Shown here piece by piece: positions 1 to 14,476 of a DNA stretch of 64,000 bases. How positions within the stretch are numbered: position 1 is the stretch's first letter; every line of letters starts with the position of its first letter. Under the pieces are notes generated by a model. That model was not told where the DNA came from. It saw nothing but the letters and a program-made list of their open reading frames with translations, and made no database searches. Source of the DNA: Pandoraea apista (GTDB lineage Bacteria; Pseudomonadota; Gammaproteobacteria; Burkholderiales; Burkholderiaceae); assembly GCF_001465595.2 (NCBI RefSeq), contig NZ_CP013481.2, positions 558,001 to 622,000 of the forward strand, written 5' to 3'. The translations under genes were made by a program, and so were the position numbers.

Positions 1-2
1 GC

Positions 3-134
3 GAGAGTGCGTTCTACGAATGGCGTCGCTATGTCTCGTGGGGCGTGCCGGCAATTGCGATCACGCTGCTGGTTCTGCTGTTGATTCTTGTGCTGGCGCT
101 GCGTGCCGGTCGCAGGAAGAACGGCGGTCATTGA
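3..134 (+). CDS. 3' end of a membrane-anchored protein, upstream gene of the EPS cluster (partial)
   Basis: Only the last 43 codons are in the window, and the gene enters from the left edge. The visible tail has a short amphipathic stretch (ESAFYEWRRYVSWG), one strongly hydrophobic helix (about residues 14-33 of the visible part) and a basic end (RAGRRKNGGH), so the protein is probably anchored by a C-terminal membrane helix. It stops 19 bases before the glycosyltransferase start and is likely in the same operon. BcsB-type periplasmic synthase subunits have this C-terminal anchor, so a BcsB-like partner is possible, but too little is visible to assign a family. Confidence 0.6.
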   Translation, partial: ESAFYEWRRYVSWGVPAIAITLLVLLLILVLALRAGRRKNGGH

Positions 135-153
135 GTAGTAGAGGCACGTCATC

Positions 154-1851
154 GTGATCTCTTCTCTCTATTGGCCCTATCTGGTCGCCGACTACTATCA
201 CGCGCTGGAAGTTGCCGGTGCAGTCGTTGGCGTCGCCATCCTGCTCTCGAGCATCGACGATCTGTTCGTCGATGCCTGGTACTGGGTGCGCCAGATCTAT
301 CGCTCGCTGTTCATCAAGCGGCGCTACACGCCGTTGCAGGCATCGCAGTTGCGCGACGCGCGTGAGCAGCCGCTGGCGATCATGGTGCCGGCGTGGCTCG
401 AGTACGACGTGATTGCCGCCATGCTCGAGAGCATGGTGGGCACGCTTGAGTACAAGAACTACATGATTTTCGTCGGCACGTACAAGAACGACGAGAAAAC
501 GAAGACCGAAGTCGAACGGATGCGCCGCCGCTATCGTCAACTGGTGCGCGTGGAGGTGCCTCACGATGGACCGACCTGCAAGGCCGACTGCCTGAACTGG
601 ATCGTGCAGGCGATCTTCAAGCAGAATCAACAGCAGGCAGAGCCCTTTGCCGGCGTGATTCTGCACGACAGCGAAGACGTGCTTCACCCGCTGGAGCTGA
701 AGTACTACAACTACCTGTTACCGCGTATCGACTTCATTCAATTGCCGGTGACCTCGCTCGAGCGCGAATGGTACGAACTCGTTGCAGGCACCTACATGGA
801 CGAGTTTGCCGAATGGCACACCAAGGATCTGGTGGTGCGCGAGAGCCTGTCGAAGATGGTGCCGTCGGCGGGCGTGGGCACGTGTTTCTCGCGTCGCGCC
901 CTCGAAGAGCTGGCCGCCGAGACGCACAACCAGCCTTTCAATACCGACACGCTCACCGAGGATTACGACATCGGCGCGCGGCTGGCGCGTCGTGGCATGA
1001 AGCAGATCTTCGGCAAGTTCCCGGTCGAGTACGTGATCAAGCGCACCGGACTCTTCGGCTTCGGTAAGGAGAAGGTGTCGACGATCCGCATGCCGCTCGG
1101 CATACGCGAGTACTTCCCTAACACGTTCAAGACGGCATATCGGCAGAAGGCGCGCTGGACATTGGGTATTGGCCTGCAAGGCTGGGCACAGGTCGGCTGG
1201 CAGGGTTCGCTCGCCACGAAGTATCTGCTGTTCCGCGACCGCAAGGGCCTGGCCACGTCGTTCATTGCGATCATCGCTTACGTGCTGCTGCTCAACTTCG
1301 TGCTGTTTCTGATCGCCGACAAACTGGGTTGGTGGACGATCTATTACCCGTCGATCTTTCCGCCCAACGGCTGGGTCATGACACTGATGAGTGTGAATGC
1401 CGTTGCGCTGGCGTTGCGCGTATCGCAGCGCAGCTTCTTCGTGTATCACATGTACGGCTGGGAACACGCGCTGCTCGCCGCACCCCGTATGGTGATCGGC
1501 AATTTCATCAATGCAATGGCCGCCGCGCGTGCCTGGCGTCTGTTTATCGTCCATCTCGTCACGGGCAAGCGCCTCGTGTGGGACAAGACGATGCACGATT
1601 TCCCTTCGACCGATCAGCTCACGCAGCAGCGTCAGCGATTGGGTGAATTGTTGCTGTCGTGGCAAGCCATCGATGAGACCAAGCTGGCATTTGCGCTAGA
1701 GACGCAAACCCGCGAGGGTCGCCCGCTTGGCGAAATCCTCATGCAACTGGGCTGGCTCGACGAAGCCACGCTCTCCGAAGCCATCTCGTTTCAGCAAGGT
1801 GTGGCCGCCCCGTCGCTGCAGCCTGCCAACTCTCCCTCTGCCGCGACATGA
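154..1851 (+). CDS. nfrB: NfrB-like processive family-2 glycosyltransferase with C-terminal MshEN c-di-GMP domain
   Basis: Predicted inner-membrane polysaccharide synthase, 565 residues, GTG start. After an N-terminal membrane helix (about 12-40) comes a GT2 domain with the motifs of processive synthases: HDSED (171-175), TED (268-270) and QKARW (331-335). Further membrane helices span about 365-480. Residues 495-547 match the MshEN cyclic-di-GMP-binding motif: RLG, L...L..Q ending at Q518, then LGEIL (525-529), G, and L...I..Q. This order (GT2, membrane, MshEN) is that of E. coli NfrB, which makes the phage N4 receptor glycan under c-di-GMP control. The stop overlaps the NfrA-like start by 4 bases, implying translational coupling. 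The polymer made here is unknown. It is not BcsA, because there is no PilZ domain. Confidence 0.85.
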   Translation: MISSLYWPYLVADYYHALEVAGAVVGVAILLSSIDDLFVDAWYWVRQIYRSLFIKRRYTPLQASQLRDAREQPLAIMVPAWLEYDVIAAMLESMVGTLEYKNYMIFVGTYKNDEKTKTEVERMRRRYRQLVRVEVPHDGPTCKADCLNWIVQAIFKQNQQQAEPFAGVILHDSEDVLHPLELKYYNYLLPRIDFIQLPVTSLEREWYELVAGTYMDEFAEWHTKDLVVRESLSKMVPSAGVGTCFSRRALEELAAETHNQPFNTDTLTEDYDIGARLARRGMKQIFGKFPVEYVIKRTGLFGFGKEKVSTIRMPLGIREYFPNTFKTAYRQKARWTLGIGLQGWAQVGWQGSLATKYLLFRDRKGLATSFIAIIAYVLLLNFVLFLIADKLGWWTIYYPSIFPPNGWVMTLMSVNAVALALRVSQRSFFVYHMYGWEHALLAAPRMVIGNFINAMAAARAWRLFIVHLVTGKRLVWDKTMHDFPSTDQLTQQRQRLGELLLSWQAIDETKLAFALETQTREGRPLGEILMQLGWLDEATLSEAISFQQGVAAPSLQPANSPSAAT

Positions 1852-4634
1852 TGACGCCCTCAACGCCTCTGACGCCTCTGACGCCTTTGCGCACACTCGC
1901 ACTCGTTGCGGCGATGACCTGTTGTGGGTCCGCGCTTCCGACGTCGGCATTCGCTCAGACATCCTCGGCCACTGCCGACAAGGCAACCGGTGAAGCACCG
2001 CTTTCCGGCCAGGCATGGAAACTCGCCGATCAGGCGTACAAGCACTATCAGGCCGGTCGCTTCGCGCAGGCGGCAACGGCAGCGGCGGGCGCGGTTCGTC
2101 TGCGCCCCGACGTTTTGCGTTTGCGCATGCTGCTCGTTTATTCGCTGCAACGGGCGGGCAAGCTCGACGAGGCGCGCAAGGCTGTCGACGACGCACTCAA
2201 ATACGGTTTCAATGCCCCGGCGTTGCGCGATGCGAATACGAATCTGGCACAGGCGCAGGCAAGCGGGCCGCCGCCGACCGAAGCCTACCGGCGCGGTTTC
2301 CCCATCGCAACGCAAGCCTATACCGAATACAACGCCCAGCAATATGCCGAATCTGCGGCGCACGCGGAGCAGGCGTTCCGCATCGATCCGTCGCAGGGCG
2401 CATGGGCGCTGTTGTGGATCGGCGCGCTCGAAGCTCAGGAAAAGCTCGACGACGGCGTGGCCGCAGCCAACGCCGCGATATCGCTTGGCGCGCCGAATAC
2501 GTCGGATCTGAAGGCCCGTATTCAGGTGCTGCGCGCGCGCAAGGCCGTAGAGCCAGCCAGTCAGGGCTATCAGGCGATCATCGATAACCAGCCGAAGCAA
2601 GCCATTCCTTTTGCACGCGAGGCGGTCGGTCTTGCGCCGGAAGACGACAGCTATCGCTTGCTGCTGATCTCGGCGCTCATGCTCGACAATCAGTTGCAGG
2701 AAGCGGAAGACGCGGCATCCGAGGCGCTCAAGCAAAACGACGAGAACACCGTGGCGCTGGAGATGCGCGGATACCTGCGTCAGCTTCAGGGCAAGAAAGC
2801 CCTCGCCGATGCGGACTTCGACGAAGCGATCAAGCAGGACTGGCTCGACGAAGGGCAGGTTCGCAATGTCCGCCTGATTGCGGCCGACGCGGCGCTCGCC
2901 GGTGGCGATCATGCGAGGGCGATAGCGCTTCTCGCGCCGCTGAGCGACAAAGACGACGCGGTGAAATCACGACTGAAGCTCGCGCGTTCAAGCAAGCGGC
3001 CACCGCCGACGCTCACGCAGGTCAACTTCCCGGCGCCGATTCAGGACCCACGCGAAACGCCGTACGGCACGGTCTACGAACTGCTGCCGTATGACACTGT
3101 CGGGTACGGCGGGCCGTCTGCGCAGGCTTATGCGGCTTATGACCGCGAGGACTATCAGGAAGCGATCAAGCAGGCGCGTCGCGCGGTGGAACTGGACCCG
3201 AAGAGCCCGATCTACCAGAGTCTGTTGACGACGGCGCTGGCGGCCGGGAATTCGACGCAGGCGAAGGAGGCTAGCGAGCGCATCGAAAAGGCGCTCGCAG
3301 AGAAGCCGGGCGATCCGGACCTGCTGATTCAGCGTGGCTATTTGCGTCAGCGTATCGGCGAGCCCGCGCTGGCCGTCGAAGATTTCCAGGCAGCGCGCGC
3401 CAGCGGCAAAGCGTCACCCGATGTCGTGCTTGCCGAGGGGTATGCCCTCTCGGCTGCGGGCCGCAAGGCCGACGCCGAGGCAACCTTCCGCAAGGCCATC
3501 GACGACTACGATGCGAAGCGGCTATCGCTCACGCCGGAGCAACTCTACGACACACGAGGCGCTATTGCCGATGTGTCGCGCCAATGGGGTGCCACGGTCT
3601 CTGTGGGGTATCGCGGTGCGCGCCCCGCGGGCGGAAGTCTTGGCGGGGCGGCGATCTCTGTGCCGGGCAATGCCGTATTCAGTACCGCCGAAGTTTTCTG
3701 GCGTCCGCGCGGCTGGTTGAATTCGAACGATCGCGCGTTCGAGGTGTACGGGCAGTTGACGAACACGTTGTACGACGCCGGGGGCCGAACCATTGCGCAG
3801 TCGGGTCTCGATCCGTGCAGTCAGGCGCCGATCAACATCGATCCGACATCGAACCGGGGCAGCGCCGGCTTTCCCACGACGGTGGGCATTCTTGGCGTGC
3901 GCTTCACCCCGTCGACCGAGTTGGGACTGACGTTCGGTCTGGAGCGACAGTTCCTGCTCGGGTCGGCAACTCGCTCAGGCACCTTCCAGCCGAAACGGCA
4001 GGACCTGCAATGCACGTTGAATCAGAACAATCAGACGGCGAATTACCACGCCAATGCGGGGAATGGCGGTTGGCAGGCCTATGCCACGTACGGGTACTAC
4101 ATCGGCAGTGAACTGCGCATGGACCAGCCGAGCTGGTTCACGCTCGAAAGCTACGTGCAGGCGGGCTATTCGTGGCAAGACCTGCCGTCCGATCTCTGGC
4201 TCACGGACAACACGACGGGCGCGGCCACCACCAGCACCTCGGGCAAGGTCAAGCGGCGGCAGTATTTCGCCGCCTTCGAAGTGCGTGCCGGACAAAGCTT
4301 CCGCATGGACCAGATCAGCGAGCACCTCGTGCTGTATCCCTACGTGGTTCTCGCGGGCGATTGGCTGAAGAACGCCGACAGCGTGGAAGGCCTCGCGATC
4401 AACGATCAGGGCACGCCGCCGCAAGCCGTGAACAGTTACGACCTGCTGGGCAATAGTTCGTCGTGGTCGCTGGGGGCGGGTGTCGGCTTCAACGTCCGTT
4501 ACTACTTCCGCTCGGACCATTACAACACCGCCCGTTCGTATGTCGATTTCGCCACGCAGTATCGCTTCAACATTGGTGGCGGTCAGGCAGATCGCGCGAA
4601 GGGGCTGTTCCTGACGTTCACGCTGTCGTACTGA
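1848..4634 (+). CDS. nfrA: NfrA-like TPR / outer-membrane exopolysaccharide export protein
   Basis: 928 residues. An N-terminal signal peptide (hydrophobic core around LALVAAMTCC, cleavage near AFAQ) is followed by about 500 residues of alanine-rich tetratricopeptide-like helices (for example YKHYQAGRFAQAA and YDREDYQEAIKQARR). The last 350 residues are rich in Gly, Tyr and Trp, alternate like a beta barrel and end in a terminal Tyr. This is the layout of NfrA, the outer-membrane partner of NfrB; PgaA and BcsC share the TPR-plus-barrel plan. It probably carries the polymer made by the preceding synthase across periplasm and outer membrane. It overlaps that gene by 4 bases and lies 44 bases before the next one. 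Confidence 0.82.
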   Translation: MMTPSTPLTPLTPLRTLALVAAMTCCGSALPTSAFAQTSSATADKATGEAPLSGQAWKLADQAYKHYQAGRFAQAATAAAGAVRLRPDVLRLRMLLVYSLQRAGKLDEARKAVDDALKYGFNAPALRDANTNLAQAQASGPPPTEAYRRGFPIATQAYTEYNAQQYAESAAHAEQAFRIDPSQGAWALLWIGALEAQEKLDDGVAAANAAISLGAPNTSDLKARIQVLRARKAVEPASQGYQAIIDNQPKQAIPFAREAVGLAPEDDSYRLLLISALMLDNQLQEAEDAASEALKQNDENTVALEMRGYLRQLQGKKALADADFDEAIKQDWLDEGQVRNVRLIAADAALAGGDHARAIALLAPLSDKDDAVKSRLKLARSSKRPPPTLTQVNFPAPIQDPRETPYGTVYELLPYDTVGYGGPSAQAYAAYDREDYQEAIKQARRAVELDPKSPIYQSLLTTALAAGNSTQAKEASERIEKALAEKPGDPDLLIQRGYLRQRIGEPALAVEDFQAARASGKASPDVVLAEGYALSAAGRKADAEATFRKAIDDYDAKRLSLTPEQLYDTRGAIADVSRQWGATVSVGYRGARPAGGSLGGAAISVPGNAVFSTAEVFWRPRGWLNSNDRAFEVYGQLTNTLYDAGGRTIAQSGLDPCSQAPINIDPTSNRGSAGFPTTVGILGVRFTPSTELGLTFGLERQFLLGSATRSGTFQPKRQDLQCTLNQNNQTANYHANAGNGGWQAYATYGYYIGSELRMDQPSWFTLESYVQAGYSWQDLPSDLWLTDNTTGAATTSTSGKVKRRQYFAAFEVRAGQSFRMDQISEHLVLYPYVVLAGDWLKNADSVEGLAINDQGTPPQAVNSYDLLGNSSSWSLGAGVGFNVRYYFRSDHYNTARSYVDFATQYRFNIGGGQADRAKGLFLTFTLSY

Positions 4635-4678
4635 GTATTGAGCATGAAAGATCTTCATCGATATCTAGGAGTTGGCGC

Positions 4679-5689
4679 ATGACCCCCAATGCTTTCGAAT
4701 CTCGCGCGCCGCGTTGCATAGGCGCCGGCATGCTTCGTTGCCTGACGGCTTGTGCCATGACGCTGGCCTTCGCCGCTGCGCAGGCGCAAGACGCCTCGAC
4801 GCTGATCATTCGCGGCAAGGACAACTGGCTGTTCCCGGGTTGGGGAAGCCTCACGCAGGTGGACACGCGTGGCATCGACGCGAATACGGAACTCGTGCGC
4901 GAAGCGCGCGATGCGCTCGCCGCACGCAATATCAAACTCGAAGTGTTGCTGTTGCCGGACAAGTCGCTCTTCTATCAGGACAAGTTGCCCGACGGCAAAG
5001 TCATGAGTCCCGAAGTCAAGGCGCGCTACAAGACGATTTTGGGCAAGCTGCAAGCGGCCGGCATCAGTACCTTCGACGACGAAACCATCCTGCGCGGCAT
5101 CAAGGATGGCGGTCAGGACGTGTATTACCGCACTGACCAGCACTGGACACAGGTGGCGGCCGATGCCACCGCGCAGGCGACGGCCGACATGATCCGCCGG
5201 GACGTGCCTAATCTGGCGGGTCAGCCCGGCACCGGCCTGCCGCTGGGCGCCATGGTCAACGACCGCCGTTACGGCGATCTGGCCGATCTGTTCATGACGG
5301 CCGACGAACGCAAGAAGATCGGCCGTGAGGTGTTTATGGTACGTCGCCCGTCGGAAGGTCAGGCCCTGCTCGACGATGCGCCTGCACCGGTGCACATCAC
5401 GGGCCACAGCATGATGCAGCCGTACTTCGGCTTCCCGCAGAAGCTCTCGAACCTGCTTGACCGGCCGGTCTCCGTCAACTGGAAGCCCGGCAATGTGGGC
5501 CAATGGGTGATGCTGCTCGAATACCTGGAGTCGCCCGCGTTCAAGCAGACGAAGCCGCAGGTGCTGGTCTGGCAGATCTTCGAACCTGCCTATTCGCAAG
5601 GTCCGGATGCCGCCGGTCTGTGGGACAACGCCTCGATCATGACGCCCGACACATGGCGCAAGCGTCTGAAGGCCGCAACGGGAAATTGA
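4679..5689 (+). CDS. AlgJ/AlgX-like periplasmic SGNH acyltransferase, copy 1
   Basis: 336 residues with a cleavable signal peptide (hydrophobic stretch ending near AQAQD). The start was chosen because an AGGAG sits 7 bases before this ATG and a signal peptide follows; the frame is open further upstream into nfrA. The N-terminal GKDNWLF motif is typical of the AlgX/AlgJ SGNH-like domain. The catalytic Asp-x-His is seen at D153/H155 (TDQHW) and the candidate nucleophile is S244 in TGHSMM. AlgX and AlgJ transfer acetyl groups to alginate in the periplasm, so a similar acyl transfer to the NfrB product is likely. It is followed after 4 bases by a second, divergent member of the family. Confidence 0.75.
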   Translation: MTPNAFESRAPRCIGAGMLRCLTACAMTLAFAAAQAQDASTLIIRGKDNWLFPGWGSLTQVDTRGIDANTELVREARDALAARNIKLEVLLLPDKSLFYQDKLPDGKVMSPEVKARYKTILGKLQAAGISTFDDETILRGIKDGGQDVYYRTDQHWTQVAADATAQATADMIRRDVPNLAGQPGTGLPLGAMVNDRRYGDLADLFMTADERKKIGREVFMVRRPSEGQALLDDAPAPVHITGHSMMQPYFGFPQKLSNLLDRPVSVNWKPGNVGQWVMLLEYLESPAFKQTKPQVLVWQIFEPAYSQGPDAAGLWDNASIMTPDTWRKRLKAATGN

Positions 5690-5693
5690 GCAC

Positions 5694-6809
5694 GTGCCGG
5701 ACATTGAATCCCCCCAAGCGCCGTCGCATCGGCTGACGGCGTTCGTGATGGCGGCGCTGCTCGCCGCCGGCCTCGTCTGGGGCGTGTGGACACTCGCCCA
5801 CGCCCGGCTTGAGCGCGAGCAGGTGAATCTGAGCGCTTGGCTCAACGGCACGGCGGGCGCCGCACTGAACAAGTCGTTGCGCCTCCCCGAGCAGGACACC
5901 GTCGAGACGTGGAACGCCGCGGTTCGCTACCGTGTGCTCGGCGACGTTGGCGAGCAGGTCGCCATGGGCTGCGCGCAATGGATGTTCTATCGCGACGGCA
6001 TGCGACCCAGACCCGGCACGGGTGACGCCGTGTTTGCAGATCGCCTGCGTCTGATGCACGACTGGCTGACGCAGGTGCGCGCGCAAGGCGTGAAGGTGCT
6101 GGTGGTGGCGGTGCCGGACAAATCGCGTATCGAGTCGGCACATTTGTGCGGACGGCAGGTATCGCAAACCATGCTCGCGCGTCTGGATATCGTGAAATCG
6201 GCGTTGCAACGCGAAGGGGTGCCGTTCGTCGATCTGCGCCCGACGCTCGCGGCGGCCGAGCAGCCCATGTTTTTCCGTACCGACGTGCACATGAATGCCG
6301 ACGGGGCAAGAGCGGCGGCGGCCGCGGTGGCGCATGCCGGCCTCTCGCTGCTGCCCGGCAAGGGATCGCAAGCGTTCGATATTGGCACGCCGGCCCCGGC
6401 GCAGCCCCGCGTAGGCGATTTGCTTGCGCTCTCCGGGCTGGCGCATGCGCGCGACCCGTGGCGGCCGCGTCCGGATCTTGCGTCGGCGCAGCACATCGCG
6501 CCGATCCGCGCAGGCGGACTGCTCGACGATACGCCGCCCGTCGAGGTCATGCTCGCCGGTAGCTCGCACGGACGCCGTAGCAATTTCGCAGAGTGGCTTG
6601 GCGTCGATCTGGGGCGCGAAGTGTGGAACCTGAGTATGGACGGCGGCGATTTTGCCGGTGCGCTGACGGTCGCCCTCAAGCAGCGCGCGCAGTGGCCCAA
6701 GAGTTTGAAACTGGTGATCTGGGAATTCTCGGAGAACGCGTTATCGCTGCCGCTCAGCGACGACGAGAAAGCCGCACTGACCCGTTTGCCCCAACGTCCG
6801 ACGACCTGA
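5694..6809 (+). CDS. AlgJ/DltD-like membrane-anchored SGNH acyltransferase, copy 2
   Basis: 371 residues, GTG start 4 bases after the previous stop. An N-terminal uncleaved helix (about residues 15-37) anchors it with the rest in the periplasm. The Asp-x-His pair is D197/H199 (RTDVHM), and the nucleophile region is AGSSHG with S290/S291, closer to the AlgJ form than copy 1. The family moves acyl groups from an MBOAT partner to a polysaccharide, and the MBOAT gene begins 13 bases downstream. The two copies share the fold but little sequence, so they may act in relay (as AlgJ and AlgX do) or on different sites. Confidence 0.72.
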   Translation: MPDIESPQAPSHRLTAFVMAALLAAGLVWGVWTLAHARLEREQVNLSAWLNGTAGAALNKSLRLPEQDTVETWNAAVRYRVLGDVGEQVAMGCAQWMFYRDGMRPRPGTGDAVFADRLRLMHDWLTQVRAQGVKVLVVAVPDKSRIESAHLCGRQVSQTMLARLDIVKSALQREGVPFVDLRPTLAAAEQPMFFRTDVHMNADGARAAAAAVAHAGLSLLPGKGSQAFDIGTPAPAQPRVGDLLALSGLAHARDPWRPRPDLASAQHIAPIRAGGLLDDTPPVEVMLAGSSHGRRSNFAEWLGVDLGREVWNLSMDGGDFAGALTVALKQRAQWPKSLKLVIWEFSENALSLPLSDDEKAALTRLPQRPTT

Positions 6810-6822
6810 TACGCGATATCCG

Positions 6823-8400
6823 ATGCTGTTCAATTCTTATCTGTTCCTGTTGCTGTTCCTGCCGGTGGCGCTGGCCGGGCATTACATCAGCGGGGCGATC
6901 AATCTGCGTCTCGCAGCGTTCTGGCTGTGTCTGACGTCGTTTGTGTTCTACGGCTGGTGGAATCCCCAGTTCGTGGTCTTGCTCGCCATTTCGATCGCAT
7001 TCAACTACGCAATCAGTCAGGGCGTGTTGCGAAACGCGGGCCGTGTACGGGTGCAGAACGCCATCGTTGCGCTGGGCGTGGGTGTCGATCTGGCGGTGCT
7101 GTTCCACTACAAGTATTTCGCCGCGCTGCTCGGATTTCTGCACGATCTCGGTCTGACACATTCGACGATCGACACGTTGGTGCTGCCGCTGGGGATCTCG
7201 TTCTTCACGTTCACGCAGATCGGATATCTGCTCGACTGCCGCTCGGGGCTGGTCAAGGAACGCAGCCTGCTCAGCTATGTACTGTTCGTCACGTTCTTTC
7301 CGCATCTGATCGCCGGCCCCATCCTTCATCACAAGGAGATGATGCCGCAGTTTGCGCAGCGCGAGAATTACCGCTTCAAGGCGGAAAACCTGTCGATTGG
7401 CGGCATTCTTTTCGTGATCGGGCTGGCCAAGAAAGTACTGCTGGCCGACGCTATCGCCCCCTATGCCGATGCGGGGTTTGCTTCGCCGGGCGACCTGCAA
7501 TTCTGGGGCGCATGGGGAACCAGTCTCTGTTATGCGTTGCAGGTGTACTTCGATTTTTCGGGCTATTCGGACATGGCGCTGGGGCTGGCGAAAATGTTCG
7601 GCATTCGCTTCCCGCTGAACTTCAACTCCCCATACAAGGCCACAAGCGTCATCGATTTCTGGGCGCGCTGGCACATTACACTCACGCGCTATCTGACGGC
7701 CTATCTGTACTACCCCGTGGCGATGGCGATTTCGCGTCGCCGGAGTGAGCGCGGATTGCCCGGCGGCTCGGAAGCCGCGCGTACGCCGTCGGGTTTTCTG
7801 AGCACGATCGTCGTGCCGACGGTTTTCACCATGGGACTGGCCGGTGTTTGGCACGGCGCGGGATTTCAGTTTCTGGTCTTCGGCCTGTTGCATGCGGCCT
7901 ACCTTTCGATCAACCACGGCTGGCGCATTTTCGTTGTCGGCCGCAAACCGGCGTCGCGCAAGGTGCATTGGCCGTCGCATATCGCGTCGGTGGCGCTCAC
8001 CTTCGTGGCGGTGCTGGTCGCGCAGGCTTTTTTCCGCGCCAATGGCGTGCACGACGCCTTGTCGCTGCTCGGCGGTATGGTCGGTTTGCGAGGCGTCGAG
8101 GCGTGGCCGTCGCTTAGCTATCTCGATGGCACAAGTCTGGGAGACGGATGGCGTTTGCTGATCGGACATCATCTGCAATTAGCCTATGTCGTGGTGCTGC
8201 TGGGCATTGTCTGGTTCACCCCGAATGCTCATCAGATTCTCGGGCGCTATTCGCCGGCCTTGTTCAAGGTGCAGGAAGCAGCACGCCGATTCATGCGCTG
8301 GCAACCGAATCCGGCGTGGCTGTCGGTCACGCTCGTGTTGCTGTTTTTGTGCCTCGTGAATCTGCACAAGGAAACACGTTTCCTCTATTTCCAGTTTTGA
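6823..8400 (+). CDS. MBOAT-family O-acyltransferase (AlgI/DltB-like)
   Basis: 525 residues, polytopic, about 11-12 hydrophobic helices. Family landmarks include the FFPHLIAGPILHH segment, the WARWHITLTRYL segment and the catalytic histidine H344 in GVWHGAG. MBOAT proteins of the AlgI and DltB groups take an acyl group from a cytoplasmic donor and pass it across the membrane. With a dedicated carrier protein and an adenylating ligase directly downstream, the donor here is probably an acyl- or aminoacyl-ACP, as for DltB, rather than acetyl-CoA. Length is close to AlgI (about 520) and longer than most DltB. Confidence 0.88.
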   Translation: MLFNSYLFLLLFLPVALAGHYISGAINLRLAAFWLCLTSFVFYGWWNPQFVVLLAISIAFNYAISQGVLRNAGRVRVQNAIVALGVGVDLAVLFHYKYFAALLGFLHDLGLTHSTIDTLVLPLGISFFTFTQIGYLLDCRSGLVKERSLLSYVLFVTFFPHLIAGPILHHKEMMPQFAQRENYRFKAENLSIGGILFVIGLAKKVLLADAIAPYADAGFASPGDLQFWGAWGTSLCYALQVYFDFSGYSDMALGLAKMFGIRFPLNFNSPYKATSVIDFWARWHITLTRYLTAYLYYPVAMAISRRRSERGLPGGSEAARTPSGFLSTIVVPTVFTMGLAGVWHGAGFQFLVFGLLHAAYLSINHGWRIFVVGRKPASRKVHWPSHIASVALTFVAVLVAQAFFRANGVHDALSLLGGMVGLRGVEAWPSLSYLDGTSLGDGWRLLIGHHLQLAYVVVLLGIVWFTPNAHQILGRYSPALFKVQEAARRFMRWQPNPAWLSVTLVLLFLCLVNLHKETRFLYFQF

Positions 8401-8427
8401 TTGCGAATTGCTCGCAGGAGTCGTTTT

Positions 8428-8667
8428 ATGAACATCAACGAGATTGAAAGCAAAGTCGCCGAGATCATCGGCAATATCGTTTTGACGCAAGTCGAACCCG
8501 ACACGCTGCTCATTGACTCCGGGTTGGTCGACTCGCTCTCGGCGGTCGACGTGGTCCTCGCCGTAGAGCGCGAGTTCGGCGTGAAAGTGCCGCCGTCGGA
8601 GATCGACGTGTATCTGGAATCGGTGCACACGCTGGCCGAGTTCATTGCGGAACACAAGCGCGCCTGA
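8428..8667 (+). CDS. Acyl carrier protein (DltC-like)
   Basis: 79-residue acidic four-helix carrier protein with the phosphopantetheine site DSL, Ser at residue 36. The ATG is preceded at a spacing of 7 bases by GCAGGAG. It would need a phosphopantetheinyl transferase encoded elsewhere. Placed between the MBOAT and the adenylating ligase, it most likely holds the activated acid as a thioester for transfer by the MBOAT, the role of DltC in lipoteichoic acid D-alanylation. It is not the fatty-acid ACP: no fab genes are nearby and it sits inside the polysaccharide operon. Confidence 0.82.
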   Translation: MNINEIESKVAEIIGNIVLTQVEPDTLLIDSGLVDSLSAVDVVLAVEREFGVKVPPSEIDVYLESVHTLAEFIAEHKRA

Positions 8668-8699
8668 GTCCCGGCGCGATTTGCCAGAGGAGTTCAACC

Positions 8700-10181
8700 A
8701 TGCGCTTCGATTTTGAACGACGGGAATTCGTCGACCTTGCCCAGACGCCCGACGCCCCTGCGGTGATCGACACGCAAGGCACGCTCAGCTGGGCCGCGTT
8801 GCGCGCTGCCACGGATCAGTGGATGACGGATGCCGAAGTCGCGGGGGTATTGCCCGACGTGCCGCTGGTCATTTCGGGACACAAGGAGTCGGGCTTTCTG
8901 GTGGCGATGCTTGGCTGTCTGTGCCTGGGGGTGCCATTCGTACCGGTGGACGTGATCAACCCCGCGCAGCGGATTGCGCGCATTGGCGAACTGGTGCAGG
9001 CGGGGCTTCGCTTCGATGCTCAGGCCGACGCGTTCGTGCCGACCGGGCACGACGCTGCCGTGCTGGCGCAGAAGGGGCTCGCCTACATCATGTTCACGTC
9101 GGGCAGTACCGGCGACCCCAAGGGGGTGCAGATCGGCCGCGACAGCGTGGCGTTGTTTGCCGGTTGGATTCGCGACGATGTGAAGCCGGGTCCCGCCCCC
9201 GCCTTCATGGACCAGATGCTGTTCAGCTTCGATTTCTCGCTGTTCAACTGGGTGGGAGCATTAGCCACGGGCGGTTGTTGCGTCTTGTGCCCGCGCGAGA
9301 TCATTGCCGATCGCGCGGCGTTCGCAAGTTATCTCGCAGACACGCACGTCAATGTGTGGGCGTCGACGCCGTCGTTCGTGCGGCAGCAGTTGCTCAATGC
9401 CGATTTCGATCACGCGCATCTGCCGGATTTGCGGATGTTCGTCTTCGGTGCGGAATCGTTGACCCCGGCGGTGGCCGAAGCGCTCTGGCAACGTTTCCCG
9501 GATGTTCGCATCGTGAACTCTTATGGTCCGACGGAAGCTACGTGTTCGACCACTTGGGTCGAGATCGACCCGGCCTTGCGCGCAGCCGCGCCGCTACCGT
9601 TTCCCATCGGCCGCGCCAAGCCCTACGCCGAGGTGTTCATCGACGACGGCGAGATTTGCATGGCGGGCGATCACGTCATGCGGGGGTATCTGAATCGCCC
9701 CGATCTCAACGAAACGCGGCTGTTTCAGTATCACGGCAAGCGCGCTTACCGCAGCGGCGATCTCGGTGAAATTGACGCGCAAGGGCTCGTCACCTTCCGC
9801 GGTCGCCGCGACGATCAGGTCAAGATGCACGGCTATCGTATCGAACTGGCGGAAGTCGATGCGTCGCTGGCGACGCTGCCGGGCATTCGGGCGGGGGCCG
9901 CTGTGGCGTTGCGGCGTCCGGACGGCGCAATCGTGCGCATGATCGGGTTCGTCGAGCCGGAAACGAACGGCCCGGCGGGACTGCACGATGTGCCCGAAGC
10001 GCTGGCGGGATGGAAGTCACTGCTTGCGCAGCGCTTGCCGCCGTACATGATCCCGTCGGAGCTGGTCGTATGTCACGGCTTCCCGACGACGAACAGCGAC
10101 AAAGCCGATCGCAAGCAATTGGAACGGATGTATCTGGAGGCGCGCACGCGCCCGGCCTCATCCGCAAAAACGGAGTCGTAA
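8700..10181 (+). CDS. DltA-like AMP-binding ligase (amino acid/acyl to carrier protein)
   Basis: 493 residues, the length of DltA (about 500). ANL-superfamily motifs are clear: FTSGSTGDPKG (132-142), SYGPTEAT, YRSGDLG, and a C-terminal Lys in NSDKADRK. It should adenylate a small acid and load it on the adjacent carrier protein. DltA for D-alanine has, as I recall, a Cys in an FCGE motif that shapes the chiral pocket; the matching stretch here reads FVFGAES, with Gly at that place. The substrate may therefore be another amino acid, L-alanine or a small hydroxy acid. It lies 32 bases after the carrier gene and 2 bases before the next. Confidence 0.82.
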   Translation: MRFDFERREFVDLAQTPDAPAVIDTQGTLSWAALRAATDQWMTDAEVAGVLPDVPLVISGHKESGFLVAMLGCLCLGVPFVPVDVINPAQRIARIGELVQAGLRFDAQADAFVPTGHDAAVLAQKGLAYIMFTSGSTGDPKGVQIGRDSVALFAGWIRDDVKPGPAPAFMDQMLFSFDFSLFNWVGALATGGCCVLCPREIIADRAAFASYLADTHVNVWASTPSFVRQQLLNADFDHAHLPDLRMFVFGAESLTPAVAEALWQRFPDVRIVNSYGPTEATCSTTWVEIDPALRAAAPLPFPIGRAKPYAEVFIDDGEICMAGDHVMRGYLNRPDLNETRLFQYHGKRAYRSGDLGEIDAQGLVTFRGRRDDQVKMHGYRIELAEVDASLATLPGIRAGAAVALRRPDGAIVRMIGFVEPETNGPAGLHDVPEALAGWKSLLAQRLPPYMIPSELVVCHGFPTTNSDKADRKQLERMYLEARTRPASSAKTES

Positions 10182-10183
10182 GC

Positions 10184-10858
10184 ATGAACATGTTGCGTAA
10201 TCTGACACTCGCAATGACGCTGACTGTCACGGGCATCGGCACGAGCGCGGCCGAAGGCATCTTCGCCCGGCTGTATGCGGCGCGTCCACCGGCGGGTTCG
10301 TCATTCGTGCGTGTCGTCAATCCGGGCACCTCGGCCATGCGCGCGCAGGTCGCCAACGGGCCGGCGCAGGTGCTGACCGGGGAGAAGGTGGCCAGCACGT
10401 ATGCCATCGTCAAGGGGAACGAAACGTTCCGGGTGGTCATCGACGGCAAGCCGGCCGGCACGCTTCAAGTGGCGCCGGATACCTTCAATACGGTGATCGT
10501 GCGTCGCGACGGTGGCAAAGTGGCGCTCACGACCTTGGTCGACACGGCCGGCACGCAAGACGGCCTGAAGGCCGAACTGCGCTTCTACAATCTCAGCGAG
10601 AAATGTTCGGGAGCGAAGCTGAGCGTGAGCCCGTCGGGACCGACGTTGTTCGACGACGTGGGGCAGGGGGCGTCGGTGGCGCGTGCGATCAATCCGGTGA
10701 AGGCCACGCTGGTATCGGGGTGTGGCGCAGCAGTGTCCGGGACGCTGGCCCTGCCGGGGCTTGAGCCGGGCGATCACTACAGCCTGTTTGTACTCGGTAC
10801 ACAGACTGCGCCGGTGCTGCGCGGGCAGTTGAGCGCGACCGATCCCTATCAGCAATAA
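10184..10858 (+). CDS. AlgF-like periplasmic accessory protein of polymer acylation
   Basis: 224 residues with a signal peptide cleaved near TSAAEG. The body is beta-rich with repeated V-R-V-x-N-P style strands, as in the AlgF family, a periplasmic protein needed for alginate O-acetylation. The start was taken at the ATG after the ligase stop, since the signal peptide begins there. It is the last gene of the plus-strand run. A role in handing acyl groups between the SGNH proteins and the exported polymer is inferred from AlgF; the identity of the family is likely but rests on overall pattern, not a catalytic motif. Confidence 0.62.
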   Translation: MNMLRNLTLAMTLTVTGIGTSAAEGIFARLYAARPPAGSSFVRVVNPGTSAMRAQVANGPAQVLTGEKVASTYAIVKGNETFRVVIDGKPAGTLQVAPDTFNTVIVRRDGGKVALTTLVDTAGTQDGLKAELRFYNLSEKCSGAKLSVSPSGPTLFDDVGQGASVARAINPVKATLVSGCGAAVSGTLALPGLEPGDHYSLFVLGTQTAPVLRGQLSATDPYQQ

Positions 10859-10895: not shown

Positions 10896-11939
10896 TCAGG
10901 ACAGTGCTGCCTTCCAGTCGCGTAGCAGCGCTTTCGAGCCGGGCGTATCGTCGAACACCCATGGGTCGATGGCGAATGCGACCAGCCGGGCCGCGCCGTA
11001 CTGTCTGGCCGTCTCCCATTGACGCTTGACGCGGCCGAAGTCGGCCGCTATGGCGTTGAATTCCGTACCGTCGTTCTTCTGCGAAGGCAGTTCTTCGAAG
11101 AGTTCGAGAATGATGTCGAAACGCGCGCCCCGCGTTTTGAGCATCGAGAACAATGGCGTGAGCGCCGCGTAGTTCGCCATGCCGGCCACGCCCACGCCGT
11201 CCTGAATCATGGGGTGGAGCTGAACGCGTTCGAGCAGCGTGCCCCACAAATCGGTCAGCGTACCGAGCGTCGGGAGCTTGCTGAAGTAGGTGGAAATGGT
11301 CGGCGCCCGGCCGCTCGTGGCGATGGCCGCCTCCGACATGGCGCCGAGCCATGCACTGAGTTTGTCGATCCGGAAGGGCGTGGCCCAGTGGTATTGCTCG
11401 AGTTCGTAGGGCAGATACCAGCCACGAAATGCCGGGTGTTTTGTCCACCCCGCGTTCTGCATATAGGCCGCGGCGCGCTTCCCGGTGCGTTGCAGATAGG
11501 CGTCGAGGGCGTTCGCCTGTGTGGCATCGATGGCGGTCCACCAGCGCTCGTCGTACGGCACGCCCAGATGAACGCCCATCTCGAGCGCAGCGCTCTCGTC
11601 GAGGAGCGTACGGATCAACGCATCGGGAGCCATCCAGGTGTTGTCGGGCTCGCCGTCGATGCCGACCCATTGCACGAAGATTTCCTTGCAACCGAGCGCA
11701 TGCGTGGCGGCGAGGCGCTCGCGCCATTGCGCGGGCGTCCATTCCAGATGGCTGCGCCAGAGTTGCACGAAACTCCCACCGATTTCCGGCGGCGTCGTAC
11801 ACGCAGCCATCGGCAGGCAGGCGACCAGCGCGGCAGCTTGCAGCAAGCGCCGGCGCAACGGGGAGTCAGGGGCGGCTGCCGGTACAATATTGTCTTTGCG
11901 CGTGGCGTTACGCCATGCGTTGTGTCGCGGATTCCTCAT
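10896..11939 (-). CDS. DUF4434 glycosidase-like lipoprotein
   Basis: The protein carries a lipobox (LPMAAC) after a basic, hydrophobic signal (RRRLLQAAALVAC), so it is probably a lipoprotein. The mature part looks like a TIM-barrel glycoside hydrolase-type fold of the DUF4434 group, with GSFVQLW near its start and repeated Trp and aromatic residues. It converges on the acylated-polymer operon and could trim or degrade that polymer; this is inference. Start: the ATG used here overlaps the ATG of the opposite gene by two bases and leaves 46 residues before the Cys. An in-frame TTG at 11858 would give an ideal 20-residue lipoprotein signal and leave a 79-base divergent promoter region, so the true start may be there. 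Confidence 0.65.
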   Translation of the reverse strand: MRNPRHNAWRNATRKDNIVPAAAPDSPLRRRLLQAAALVACLPMAACTTPPEIGGSFVQLWRSHLEWTPAQWRERLAATHALGCKEIFVQWVGIDGEPDNTWMAPDALIRTLLDESAALEMGVHLGVPYDERWWTAIDATQANALDAYLQRTGKRAAAYMQNAGWTKHPAFRGWYLPYELEQYHWATPFRIDKLSAWLGAMSEAAIATSGRAPTISTYFSKLPTLGTLTDLWGTLLERVQLHPMIQDGVGVAGMANYAALTPLFSMLKTRGARFDIILELFEELPSQKNDGTEFNAIAADFGRVKRQWETARQYGAARLVAFAIDPWVFDDTPGSKALLRDWKAALS

Positions 11940-12159
11940 GAGCAAACCTGCCCTCACCCTCAAGTTCAAGTGCACCAAGTGTGCCAAACCGGTCACGCTG
12001 TATTTGCAGAAGACGACAGCCTGTTCGCACATCACCCCGTATCAGGGATGGTGCAAGTGTGGTCAATTGATGCGTCATGCCACAGGCGACAAGGACGCGG
12101 TTGCGTCGTTCGTCGATTCGATGGACCCGCTGTGGTCGCATCACCACCACCATCATTGA
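11938..12159 (+). CDS. Small zinc-ribbon-like protein with natural C-terminal His6
   Basis: 73 residues. Cysteines at 12, 15, 29, 39 and 41 (CTKC, C, CKC) look like a metal-binding ribbon, and the chain ends in SHHHHHH just before the stop. No signal peptide or membrane segment is seen, so it is probably cytoplasmic. Function is unknown; metal binding or storage, or a small nucleic-acid-binding role, are both possible. It is divergent from the DUF4434 gene with touching start codons and convergent with the acyltransferase gene. The Shine-Dalgarno is weak (GCGGA), so the start is not certain. Confidence 0.6.
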   Translation: MSKPALTLKFKCTKCAKPVTLYLQKTTACSHITPYQGWCKCGQLMRHATGDKDAVASFVDSMDPLWSHHHHHH

Positions 12160-12321: not shown

Positions 12322-13461
12322 TCAGGGCGCGGCGTTCACGCGTGACGACCCGCCGAGCCACGCCAGACGCCGTCGAATGAAGGCTTGCGCGGGGGCTTCC
12401 AACGCCCGGTAGACCAGACGCGCCAACGTGAAGACCACGACGAGATAAGCCGCGAGGAACCACGGGCTCATGGCGAGCGTTGCGCTGCTCAAGCCGAACA
12501 ACGACAGCACGATCACGGCCGTCAGTTGCAACGGGAAGTGAATGAGATAGCTCGAATACGTGGTGTTGCCAAGGTTGGCAATCGGCCCGGCCAGCCGCTC
12601 GGGAATCCACGGCTCGACGACTTGCAGCAGCACGATCGACACAGGCGCAATGACCGTAGCTGCGAGATACTTCGTGCCGCCGAACGCGAAGCAAACGCCG
12701 ATCAATCCCAGATAGGCCGCGCAGCACAGCAGTATCGTCGCCTGCCGCCGCGACTCGATCACGCTGCGCAGCCGCTCGTACACCAGATGCACGGCCCCGC
12801 CCATAAAGAAGTAAAAGGCGCAGAAGACGATGTTCGATTCGCTGCCTTTGATCTGTTGATGAATCAGCAGCAGGCCCGCGACAGCCGACAGAACCATGAG
12901 CGACAGCGTCGATACCAGTCCGATACGGAAGAACCGCGCCAGCAGGAAGAACGCAAAATAGATGACGATTTCCGTCGACACGCTCCAGACTGGCCCGTTG
13001 AACGAGTCGGTGTAAGGCGTGAGCCATCCCGAAGCGAAGATCACGTTGACGAAGAAATCGTACGGCGTGTTGTACGGATACACGAAAAACGCGTGATTTT
13101 CGCGCACGTAATACAGCTGAAGCGCGGCGACTGCCACGAGCGTGACGATATGCAACGGATACAGCCGCGAGAACCGGTTCAGGAAGAACAGGCCGCCGGA
13201 CACCCGGCGCGTGGCGATCTTCGTCAGATAGCGATTGAAGAAGATAAAGCCGGAGATCGTCCAGAAGACGTTCACGCCGAGCCACCCGTAATCGTAGAAC
13301 GGGTGGAGCAGGGCGTAGAGCGGCTGGCCGGTACGGGCGACGTCGATCGACGCCGTCGCGGGCTGAAAGAAGAAATGCTGGTAATGCCAGATGAGAACGG
13401 CGAACGCGCTGAAGAATCGCAGGATCTCGATGCCGACCAACCGGTCTTGGCGACTGCTCAT
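12322..13461 (-). CDS. OafA-like membrane acyltransferase (acyltransferase family 3)
   Basis: 379 residues with about ten hydrophobic helices. The N-terminal GIEILRFFSAFAVLIWHY segment holds the conserved Arg and the catalytic-type His of acyltransferase family 3. WLGVNVFWTISGF and NRFSRLYPLH are further family motifs. Such proteins O-acetylate surface polysaccharides using acetyl-CoA. It is the last gene of a minus-strand trio (Wzz-like, DUF6492, this gene; 5-base gap upstream) and probably decorates the Wzy-type polysaccharide of region 2, independently of the carrier-protein line of region 1. Confidence 0.85.
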   Translation of the reverse strand: MSSRQDRLVGIEILRFFSAFAVLIWHYQHFFFQPATASIDVARTGQPLYALLHPFYDYGWLGVNVFWTISGFIFFNRYLTKIATRRVSGGLFFLNRFSRLYPLHIVTLVAVAALQLYYVRENHAFFVYPYNTPYDFFVNVIFASGWLTPYTDSFNGPVWSVSTEIVIYFAFFLLARFFRIGLVSTLSLMVLSAVAGLLLIHQQIKGSESNIVFCAFYFFMGGAVHLVYERLRSVIESRRQATILLCCAAYLGLIGVCFAFGGTKYLAATVIAPVSIVLLQVVEPWIPERLAGPIANLGNTTYSSYLIHFPLQLTAVIVLSLFGLSSATLAMSPWFLAAYLVVVFTLARLVYRALEAPAQAFIRRRLAWLGGSSRVNAAP

Positions 13462-13466
13462 CGGTC

Positions 13467-14456
13467 TTATCCCTTGATTCCCTTTTCTCCGCGAAGTTTT
13501 CGCAGCATTTTGAGCCCCTTGCGTATGGCTGCAGAGTATATCTCTTTGCCCTTCAGCAGGGGGTCGACATGCCGGTCATATGGCTGAATCGTAATGGGGA
13601 AGTAGGGAGAGAGCTTGGCAACTACCTGGTCGATCGGAATCTTGGTGTTGCTCTGAACCACCGCGAACATACCGTCGCTCTCGGGCGCGAAGTAGTGCGC
13701 GGCGTCCCATTCCTGCATTTTGTCGGCGAACCACACGCTTTCGCTCGCGTGCAACGTGCGCTGCGGCGGCACCGCCTGCGTGTGATACCGCTCAAGCAGT
13801 CCCGCATGCTCGGCGTTGAGCCAGTAGAGCGTGTATTCCGTCCAGTCGATGGCGTAGTTCGCAAGCAGCACGCGCTTCCAGTCGGTGCCGTTCACGGCTT
13901 CCAGCCGTTGCTGCAACGACAGGCAGAGCGAGCGGGACAGCGTTGCCGGTGTCCACCAGACACCCTCGCGGTCCAGATGCGGATCGACGTCGAGCAGCTT
14001 GGCTGAGGCTTCCCAGTAGTACGGCTCGACACTGCGCCCCTTGAGGTGCGTTACCGCGCGGCCGTCCACAATCAGCGAATCGTAGTCGAAGGCGTGCGTG
14101 GCAAAGCAATCCGGGTCGAAGATGAGGAAATACTCGGTCTCGATCCACTCGGGTGCGTTGATCTTGATGATCTGCTGGCGATGCCAGTTACGGATCTGGT
14201 GACGTTGGGAGAATTCGGCAAACGCGCCCATGTAAAGCGATTCGTCGATCACCTCGATGGGGAAGTCGGACCAGGCTTTGGCATAACCCCTGACCTCGTC
14301 GACTTCGTCGTGCGGCACGATGATCACAAAGCGATGGAACAGATCCGGCGTTGTGAAGTGCCGCAGCGACGAGAACAGAATGTCGCAACGGCCGATGTTG
14401 TCGGCGTAATGGCGTCCCCGTGTTTTGATCGGCAGAATCGCGCTGATTTGTGGCAT
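13467..14456 (-). CDS. DUF6492-type glycosyltransferase-like protein
   Basis: 329 residues, soluble, no signal peptide. It starts with a hydrophobic strand (ISAILPIKTRG) and contains FDPDCF, a D-x-D-type motif placed as in GT-A glycosyltransferases, then a Trp-rich middle. I recognise the general DUF6492 pattern; enzymatic function is not established from sequence alone. Its position between the chain-length protein and an acyltransferase makes sugar transfer to the lipid-linked repeat unit the best guess. It lies 20 bases after the upstream gene and 5 bases before the next. Confidence 0.65.
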   Translation of the reverse strand: MPQISAILPIKTRGRHYADNIGRCDILFSSLRHFTTPDLFHRFVIIVPHDEVDEVRGYAKAWSDFPIEVIDESLYMGAFAEFSQRHQIRNWHRQQIIKINAPEWIETEYFLIFDPDCFATHAFDYDSLIVDGRAVTHLKGRSVEPYYWEASAKLLDVDPHLDREGVWWTPATLSRSLCLSLQQRLEAVNGTDWKRVLLANYAIDWTEYTLYWLNAEHAGLLERYHTQAVPPQRTLHASESVWFADKMQEWDAAHYFAPESDGMFAVVQSNTKIPIDQVVAKLSPYFPITIQPYDRHVDPLLKGKEIYSAAIRKGLKMLRKLRGEKGIKG

Positions 14457-14476
14457 GGTGATTCGAGGCCGACGGC

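Follow-up and report, generated by a model that had tools for sequence, protein, structure and literature searches.

A gene cluster of Pandoraea apista, lying at the start of the stretch of DNA analysed here (the window: 64,000 nucleotides, bases 558001-622000 of a 5.49 Mb contig, from a genome of 5.57 Mb given as 100% complete), probably encodes an Nfr-type exopolysaccharide factory that is controlled by cyclic di-GMP (c-di-GMP) and has its own carrier-dependent acylation line, with a route through an acyl carrier protein (ACP) and an acyltransferase of the MBOAT family. Open reading frames together with family matches place eight plus-strand genes at 154-10858, with the coordinates and the run of families (NfrB, NfrA, two SGNH proteins, MBOAT, ACP, ligase, AlgF-like protein) that had been proposed in an earlier reading of the letters alone (the original prediction). 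That reading spoke of nine genes; there are eight, as many as its own list contained, and it missed three neighbours: wecB and a bcsB-like gene, which immediately precede the run, and a convergent gene for a YbcH homologue (DUF4434). The full order is wecB, bcsB-like, nfrB, nfrA, SGNH1, SGNH2, MBOAT, ACP, ligase and algF-like, and among the eight genes no intergenic gap exceeds the 44 bases between 4634 and 4679. The features are listed below in window coordinates, which equal L002 coordinates minus 10000; the Pfam matches given for the eight genes exceed the curated cut-offs.

L002:6584-7744, fully upstream of the window: wecB, preceding the bcsB-like gene (TIGR00236, 467 bits, cut-off 210)
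1..134, plus strand: 3' end of the bcsB-like gene, the remainder lying upstream of the window (L002:7852-10134)
154..1851, plus strand: nfrB, c-di-GMP-binding membrane glycosyltransferase (NF012033, 935 bits, cut-off 537)
1848..4634, plus strand: nfrA, TPR plus outer-membrane exporter (PF13283 NfrA_C, 85.8 bits; TPR matches)
4679..5689, plus strand: SGNH1, AlgJ/AlgX-type acyltransferase (PF16822 ALGX, 226.6 bits; AlgJ 4o8v, E 1.4e-16)
5694..6809, plus strand: SGNH2, second AlgJ/AlgX-type acyltransferase (PF16822 ALGX, 209.3 bits; AlgJ 4o8v, E 1.5e-11)
6823..8400, plus strand: MBOAT with a fused C-terminal acyl-shuttle motif, FLYFQF (FXYXXF) (PF03062, 76.2 bits)
8428..8667, plus strand: ACP of 79 aa, phosphopantetheine Ser in LVDSLS (PF00550 PP-binding, 37.6 bits)
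8700..10181, plus strand: DltA-like amino-acid adenylating ligase with a non-DltA pocket (PF00501 AMP-binding, 166.4 bits)
10184..10858, plus strand: AlgF-like periplasmic protein (PF11182, 44.8 bits, cut-off 34.4; AlgF 6czt, E 7.7e-7)
10896..12035, minus strand: YbcH homologue (DUF4434), predicted glycoside-hydrolase-like TIM barrel, convergent with the eight-gene run

The genes for synthesis and export resemble those for the NfrB-NfrA-YbcH/NGR glycan of Escherichia coli, the receptor of phage N4, in the glycosyltransferase motifs of NfrB, its MshE-type c-di-GMP domain (NF053729, 56.5 bits, cut-off 38), the NfrA_C exporter and the presence of a YbcH homologue. In E. coli, NfrB is a c-di-GMP-binding synthase that is needed together with WecB for N4 infection (PMC8669469, PMC8669472, cited here and below from excerpts); in the window genome a WecB-type epimerase is encoded directly upstream of the bcsB-like gene and nfrB. 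NfrB shares 43% identity with E. coli NfrB over 552 columns (565 aa here against 745 there) and retains the DxD, TED and QxxRW motifs, as it does in all 25 nfr loci compared. The match between the two NfrA proteins is weak and local (E 2e-8), and the NfrA of the window carries both the TPR and the NfrA_C parts that an Nfr exopolysaccharide system requires. The YbcH homologue is likewise remote from E. coli YbcH (26% over 194 aa, E 1e-8); the invariant residues are common to both, among them two invariant Glu, and the predicted fold is a glycosidase-like TIM barrel, so that E. coli YbcH, whose role is unclear, thereby gains a predicted fold of this kind. On its own, the BcsB-like protein (760 residues) had no Pfam, NCBIfam or PDB-sequence match, but some of its relatives bear PF03170 and the name BcsB. 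When its model (low-confidence, mean pLDDT 62.8) was compared with the PDB by Foldseek, the 22 top matches were cellulose synthase entries without exception (18 under the name BcsB), with a best E of 8.5e-16 but TM-scores of only 0.25-0.39. We therefore call it BcsB-like, through its relatives and this low-confidence fold. Unlike the window, E. coli nfrBA-ybcH has no BcsB, SGNH, MBOAT, ACP, ligase or AlgF gene alongside.

The acyl-transfer part is built mostly from components of the alginate type. Two ALGX-domain proteins, AlgF and an MBOAT with an FXYXXF end make the alginate-type set complete, as in AlgI/J/F/X. Among solved structures, the MBOAT matches DltB (6bug and 8jem, E about 1e-25); it ends in RFLYFQF in 25/25 nfr loci, an end that the 12 dlt- or dra-type MBOATs compared all lack. 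Also invariant in these 25 loci are the His of the MBOAT, the Ser of the ACP and, in SGNH1 as well as SGNH2, DxH and Ser; the 25 include four, described below, in which an FkbH-like enzyme stands in for the ligase. The C-terminal motif gives a clue to how these parts could work together: PatA acetylates the Tyr of a C-terminal hexapeptide of the FXYXXF type, PatB can accept acetyl from such a peptide, and in Dlt systems the motif resides on the microprotein DltX (PMC12148441, from excerpts). Genome-wide, there are a single PF03062 MBOAT and two ALGX proteins, all of them inside this cluster, and the ACP therefore has no other MBOAT to serve.

The original prediction had described this part as a complete Dlt/Alg-like acylation line; as a complete Dlt line it does not hold. 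The MBOAT scores 168.5 bits against an NCBIfam DltB cut-off of 375, the ACP 27.1 and 34 bits against DltC cut-offs of 52.35 and 68, and the ligase 327.9 and 331.4 bits against DltA cut-offs of 559.85 and 476. No DltD family match was found in SGNH1 or SGNH2, which at E <=0.01 match ALGX alone apart from a sub-cut-off GDSL match of SGNH2, and the DltX-type motif is fused to the MBOAT. The logic of ligase, carrier, MBOAT and SGNH protein is shared with Dlt and dra systems; the SGNH family, the fused motif, the ligase pocket and the presumed target, an exported polymer synthesised by products of the same operon, are not. What sets the cluster apart from alginate O-acetylation is the carrier and the adenylating ligase inside the gene run, which suggest that acyl-CoA is probably not the donor. 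In sum, the line fits neither definition and looks like a carrier-dependent acylation line acting on an Nfr polymer.

In the route that we propose, WecB would provide UDP-N-acetylmannosamine, and NfrB, activated by c-di-GMP at its MshE-type domain, would polymerise it, the BcsB-like and NfrA proteins guiding the polymer outward. The substrate adenylated by the ligase and loaded on the ACP would be an alpha-amino acid, probably small, with no clear case for D-alanine. The MBOAT would then collect this cargo from the ACP at the inner face of the membrane and, at the outer face, attach it to the motif Tyr at its own C-terminus (RFLYFQF), from where SGNH1 and/or SGNH2, with AlgF, would esterify hydroxyls of the polymer. 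The loader would be exchangeable, an FkbH-like enzyme with its own ACP taking the place of ligase and ACP in four sister genomes. That a carrier-bound acid is put on an NfrB-made polymer, as originally predicted, is the best fit to the gene order, the conserved catalytic residues, the recurrence of the set and the exchange of the loader. The sequences show which genes are there, that the set recurs, that catalytic residues are conserved, that the pocket differs from that of DltA and that the block has been replaced; the chemistry, the substrates and the order of transfer in this scheme are what we infer from these parts.

The nature of the cargo depends on the ligase. Ordinary D-alanylation, in which the ligase would be a plain DltA and the polymer would carry D-alanine esters as in Dlt and in the dra locus of Bordetella, is a possible but rather unlikely reading. 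It draws on the facts that DltA families are the nearest curated ones (328-331 bits), that the nearest solved single-domain relatives are DltA enzymes, and that the amine-binding Asp is kept (Asp178, D197 in 3dhv, which we take to be the B. cereus DltA). The kept Asp makes an amino-acid substrate likely, and the ligase of the window likely uses an alpha-amino acid. The rest of the pocket argues otherwise. A gap-free pocket alignment with solved DltA pairs Asp197 of 3dhv with Asp178, Cys269 with Gly250 and Val301 with Cys282, and the pocket code reads DFFAVGSCSK. Relative to DltA, window-type pockets show a joint set of substitutions: F for L/V, Gly-Ala for Cys-Gly, Ser for Thr and Cys-Ser for Val-Ala. 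The solved DltA 3l8c also lacks the Cys and has Asp in its place, so a change at that position alone is no proof. Plain Dlt membership was rejected on the missed family cut-offs and the different pocket.

Ten pocket positions of 149 ligases fall into two main groups. The code DFFAVGSCSK with its near variants accounts for 112 rows, one of them (P0098) intermediate, a number biased upwards, since best matches of the window ligase make up 115 of the 149 rows. The DltA-type group, with CTVA at the last variable positions, holds 35 rows, which come from dlt loci of Gram-positive bacteria, dra-like loci of the Achromobacter type, a single Photorhabdus locus, four nfr-linked loci (five rows, the G171 locus having been counted both as L013 and as L117) and database proteins, the loci of these last unread. 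The two rows left over, both enterobacterial, fit neither group. Two Dlt-like loci, L028 (a Pluralibacter metagenome-assembled genome) and L029 (Pectobacterium versatile), have Ile in the pocket where most DltA rows have Cys; the codes of this type are DLIVIISVAK and DLIVVISIAK. One genome, G138, has a window-type ligase in an nfr cluster (L011) and a separate dra-like ligase with a DltA pocket (L012), which argues for different substrates of the two types and against D-alanine in the nfr cluster. The consistent departure of the window-type pocket from that of DltA makes D-alanine doubtful as the substrate, and the ligase is best described as related to DltA but with a pocket of another type. 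The bulky F179 and F182 give a weak indication of a small amino acid. To our knowledge DFFAVGSCSK corresponds to no specificity code, and we name no substrate.

The arrangement is not a peculiarity of the window. The set was found again in Achromobacter (L014, L015), Cupriavidus basilensis (L016) and Stenotrophomonas (L017, L018), and with this recurrence in other genera chance does not explain it. Among the loci whose neighbourhoods were read, every one with a window-type pocket lies within an nfr cluster (17/17: the window, L108-L116 from nine other genomes of the genus, L010, L011 and L014-L018), so that ligase and carrier are linked to NfrAB well beyond this genome. The original prediction would have been refuted had such linkage been absent from other genomes, and on this point it stands. 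Neighbours were annotated for 24 of a set of 80 loci (L014-L037), and three of the remaining 56 (L038, L054, L070) were used as DltA rows in the pocket and MBOAT comparisons. DltA-pocket ligases occur in four further nfr clusters, L023 (a Paraburkholderia metagenome-assembled genome), L117, L024 and L025 (Pseudacidovorax); at these four, D-alanine is the likely cargo, a point on the side of D-alanylation. Around the separate dra-like or dlt ligases (L012, L019-L022, L037, L120 and others) there was no NfrB in the stretch read. The named loci among these belong to Achromobacter-type genomes with a separate dra-like locus, a clade-2 ligase and a short MBOAT; the pocket is of the DltA type in the four ligase rows compared, and the four MBOAT C-termini compared all lack the fused shuttle motif.

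Among 300 sampled genomes of the order, 14 have NfrB (E <=1e-100) and seven the ligase (E <=1e-90), and the nfr-type MBOAT (68-100% identity) occurred in four, exactly those with a ligase beside NfrB. The next MBOATs by score have 48% identity, with partial matches reaching 53%. At E <=1e-60 an MBOAT was matched in 62 of the 300 genomes, of which 58 hold other MBOATs only, their surroundings unread. Within the genus (32 genomes), NfrB is present in 14 and the ligase in 10.

Plain O-acetylation from acetyl-CoA as in alginate, with ligase and ACP serving some other purpose, is improbable. The SGNH proteins, AlgF and the fused shuttle motif are indeed alginate- and Pat-like, and similar clusters were read as acetyltransferases in PMC8669469 and PMC8669472. 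Yet an ACP and a loader accompany this MBOAT type in every nfr cluster read (21 ligase loci and four FkbH loci), the loci of this type without a ligase have another ACP loader instead, and the genome offers the ACP no second MBOAT. A plain acetyltransferase line was rejected for the first of these reasons. Very improbable, too, is a reading in which ligase and ACP form a small biosynthetic module, for free aminoacyl-ACP chemistry or regulation, that merely accompanies the polysaccharide genes: in some genera the two genes diverge from the cluster, but in 18 of the 21 ligase loci, in several genera, they stand directly after the MBOAT gene on the same strand, and FkbH and ACP replace them in parallel in four loci.

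These four loci (L128-L131) come from the 4 of 32 genomes of the genus that have NfrB without the ligase, and they reveal a natural exchange. The core remains close to that of the window, at or slightly under the range of nine other ligase-type genomes: 82-91% against 87-92% identity for wecB, 81-83% against 83-91% for the bcsB-like gene and 88-90% against 89-96% for nfrB. Immediately after NfrB there is a sharp step, NfrA sharing 28-29% with the window against 59-97% in the ligase type. The same holds further downstream for SGNH1 (44-46% against 74-95%), SGNH2 (49-52% against 65-91%), the MBOAT (59% against 79-97%), AlgF (38-43% against 60-89%) and YbcH (55-56% against 70-90%). In L129 (14461-18666), an FkbH-like protein (TIGR01686, 304.6 bits, cut-off 146.65) and another ACP (PF00550, 22.6 bits, cut-off 20.8) are encoded between SGNH2 and the MBOAT, and a gene of the VOC/glyoxalase family follows the MBOAT; the FkbH, ACP and VOC genes are also in L128, L130 and L131, at 85-97% identity to the L129 copies. 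Of the loci tested beside them, 20 with the ligase and 10 bare nfr loci, none has the FkbH gene.

The trees tell a similar story, with several deep branches open or long. NfrB intermixes the two types, ligase-type L116 grouping with FkbH-type L128-L130 (97/95, starred), and the starred branches require two changes between types, whereas in the MBOAT and NfrA trees, when only these two groups are counted, the types are split by a 100/100 branch. The identity step and the discordance of the trees point to exchange of the block behind a nearly constant core: the stretch from nfrA to ybcH has been replaced as a unit, and within one genus two block types are swapped behind closely similar WecB-BcsB-NfrB genes. 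Since L130 retains two upstream neighbour genes at 93%, the exchange took place there at the same chromosomal position; the stretches read of L128, L129 and L131 do not show the two neighbours. By analogy with the loaders of polyketide pathways, where FkbH and a stand-alone ACP make glyceryl-ACP (PMC7489565, from excerpts), the FkbH-like enzyme is predicted to make glyceryl-ACP and L128-L131 to encode a glycerate-ester line, although unlike those loaders it adjoins MBOAT and SGNH polysaccharide genes. Further BcsB/FkbH pairs may exist in Paraburkholderia unamae and Achromobacter deleyi, in each of which relatives of the two proteins come from contigs of equal length (334466 and 6470756, respectively).

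No other observation hints as strongly at a carrier-borne cargo as this natural swap of the loader. We lean, with modest confidence, towards a broader view of the nfr locus as a glycan factory under c-di-GMP control with exchangeable acyl chemistry, in which export-and-decoration blocks with different ACP loaders (a variant amino-acid ligase, a DltA-pocket ligase or an FkbH glyceryl-ACP enzyme) would be attached to a WecB-BcsB-NfrB core. One may speculate that the exchange is driven by phages that use the glycan as a receptor.

A number of points weigh against a c-di-GMP-controlled factory with a dedicated acylation line. The polymer, its acylation and its control by c-di-GMP are inferred from homology, and the short gaps are only suggestive of a single operon. 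In L013/L117, L024 and L025 the ligase and ACP genes are on the strand opposite to the cluster, and co-transcription is thus not universal. The four swapped genomes exchange nfrA, both SGNH genes, the MBOAT and algF as well, so modularity is shown for the whole block and not for the loader alone. No acylation genes were present in the stretch read around the other 10 of the 14 NfrB loci in the order sample, two of these stretches ending at contig ends, which makes acylation an optional layer. Finally, in a class-wide sample the ligase appeared in only 1 of 369 genomes, the window's own.

The original prediction, which knew of no described system that joins all these parts, needs a correction here. 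Clusters combining nfr and O-acetyltransferase genes were reported in 2021: in A. xylosoxidans nfrA, nfrB, wecB, a BcsB homologue and homologues of periplasmic O-acetyltransferases occur together, and in Simplicispira suum alginate-type acetyltransferase genes lie within the nfr cluster (PMC8669469, PMC8669472). The ligase and the carrier, on the other hand, do not figure in the main texts of these papers, where 'ligase', 'carrier protein' and 'AMP-binding' have zero occurrences; supplementary figures may show the genes. In contrast to the main-text account of A. xylosoxidans, the Achromobacter loci L014 and L015 have both. In the open-licence literature we found no paper joining NfrB with DltA, nor an on-topic one joining it with an acyl carrier, none joining FkbH, MBOAT and polysaccharide or HAD-IIIC and MBOAT, and none joining DUF4434 with exopolysaccharide. 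Amino acids on such polymers have a precedent of another kind in the exopolysaccharide of Vibrio alginolyticus, which bears amide-linked alanine and serine (PMC4663550, from excerpts).

If the proposed route is correct, it would be, within the literature searched, the first line described that esterifies a Gram-negative synthase-dependent exopolysaccharide with aminoacyl or glyceryl groups. Acetyl is the main acyl group known on such polymers. With a carrier-borne amino acid or glycerate attached, a biofilm polymer and probable phage receptor would differ in charge and hydrophobicity, and the exchangeable blocks would make it a chemotype-switching surface polymer with an exchangeable coat chemistry. 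The reading makes predictions part by part, on the substrate of the ligase, the loading of the ACP and the Tyr relay, and the ligase-type and FkbH-type genomes within one genus form a natural comparison pair.

The surroundings of the cluster can be described more briefly. Rfam at gathering cut-offs matched, in L002:5400-10200, two tRNA genes at L002:5755-5920 and nothing else; the pair lies just 5' of wecB and is a possible integration point. Promoter and terminator scans around wecB and at the 3' end of the cluster stayed at the level of shuffled sequence. Beyond the YbcH homologue, three minus-strand products at 12322-16666 may mark where another polysaccharide cluster ends: an AT3 acyltransferase (PF01757), a DUF6492 protein and one that matches Wzz below the cut-off.

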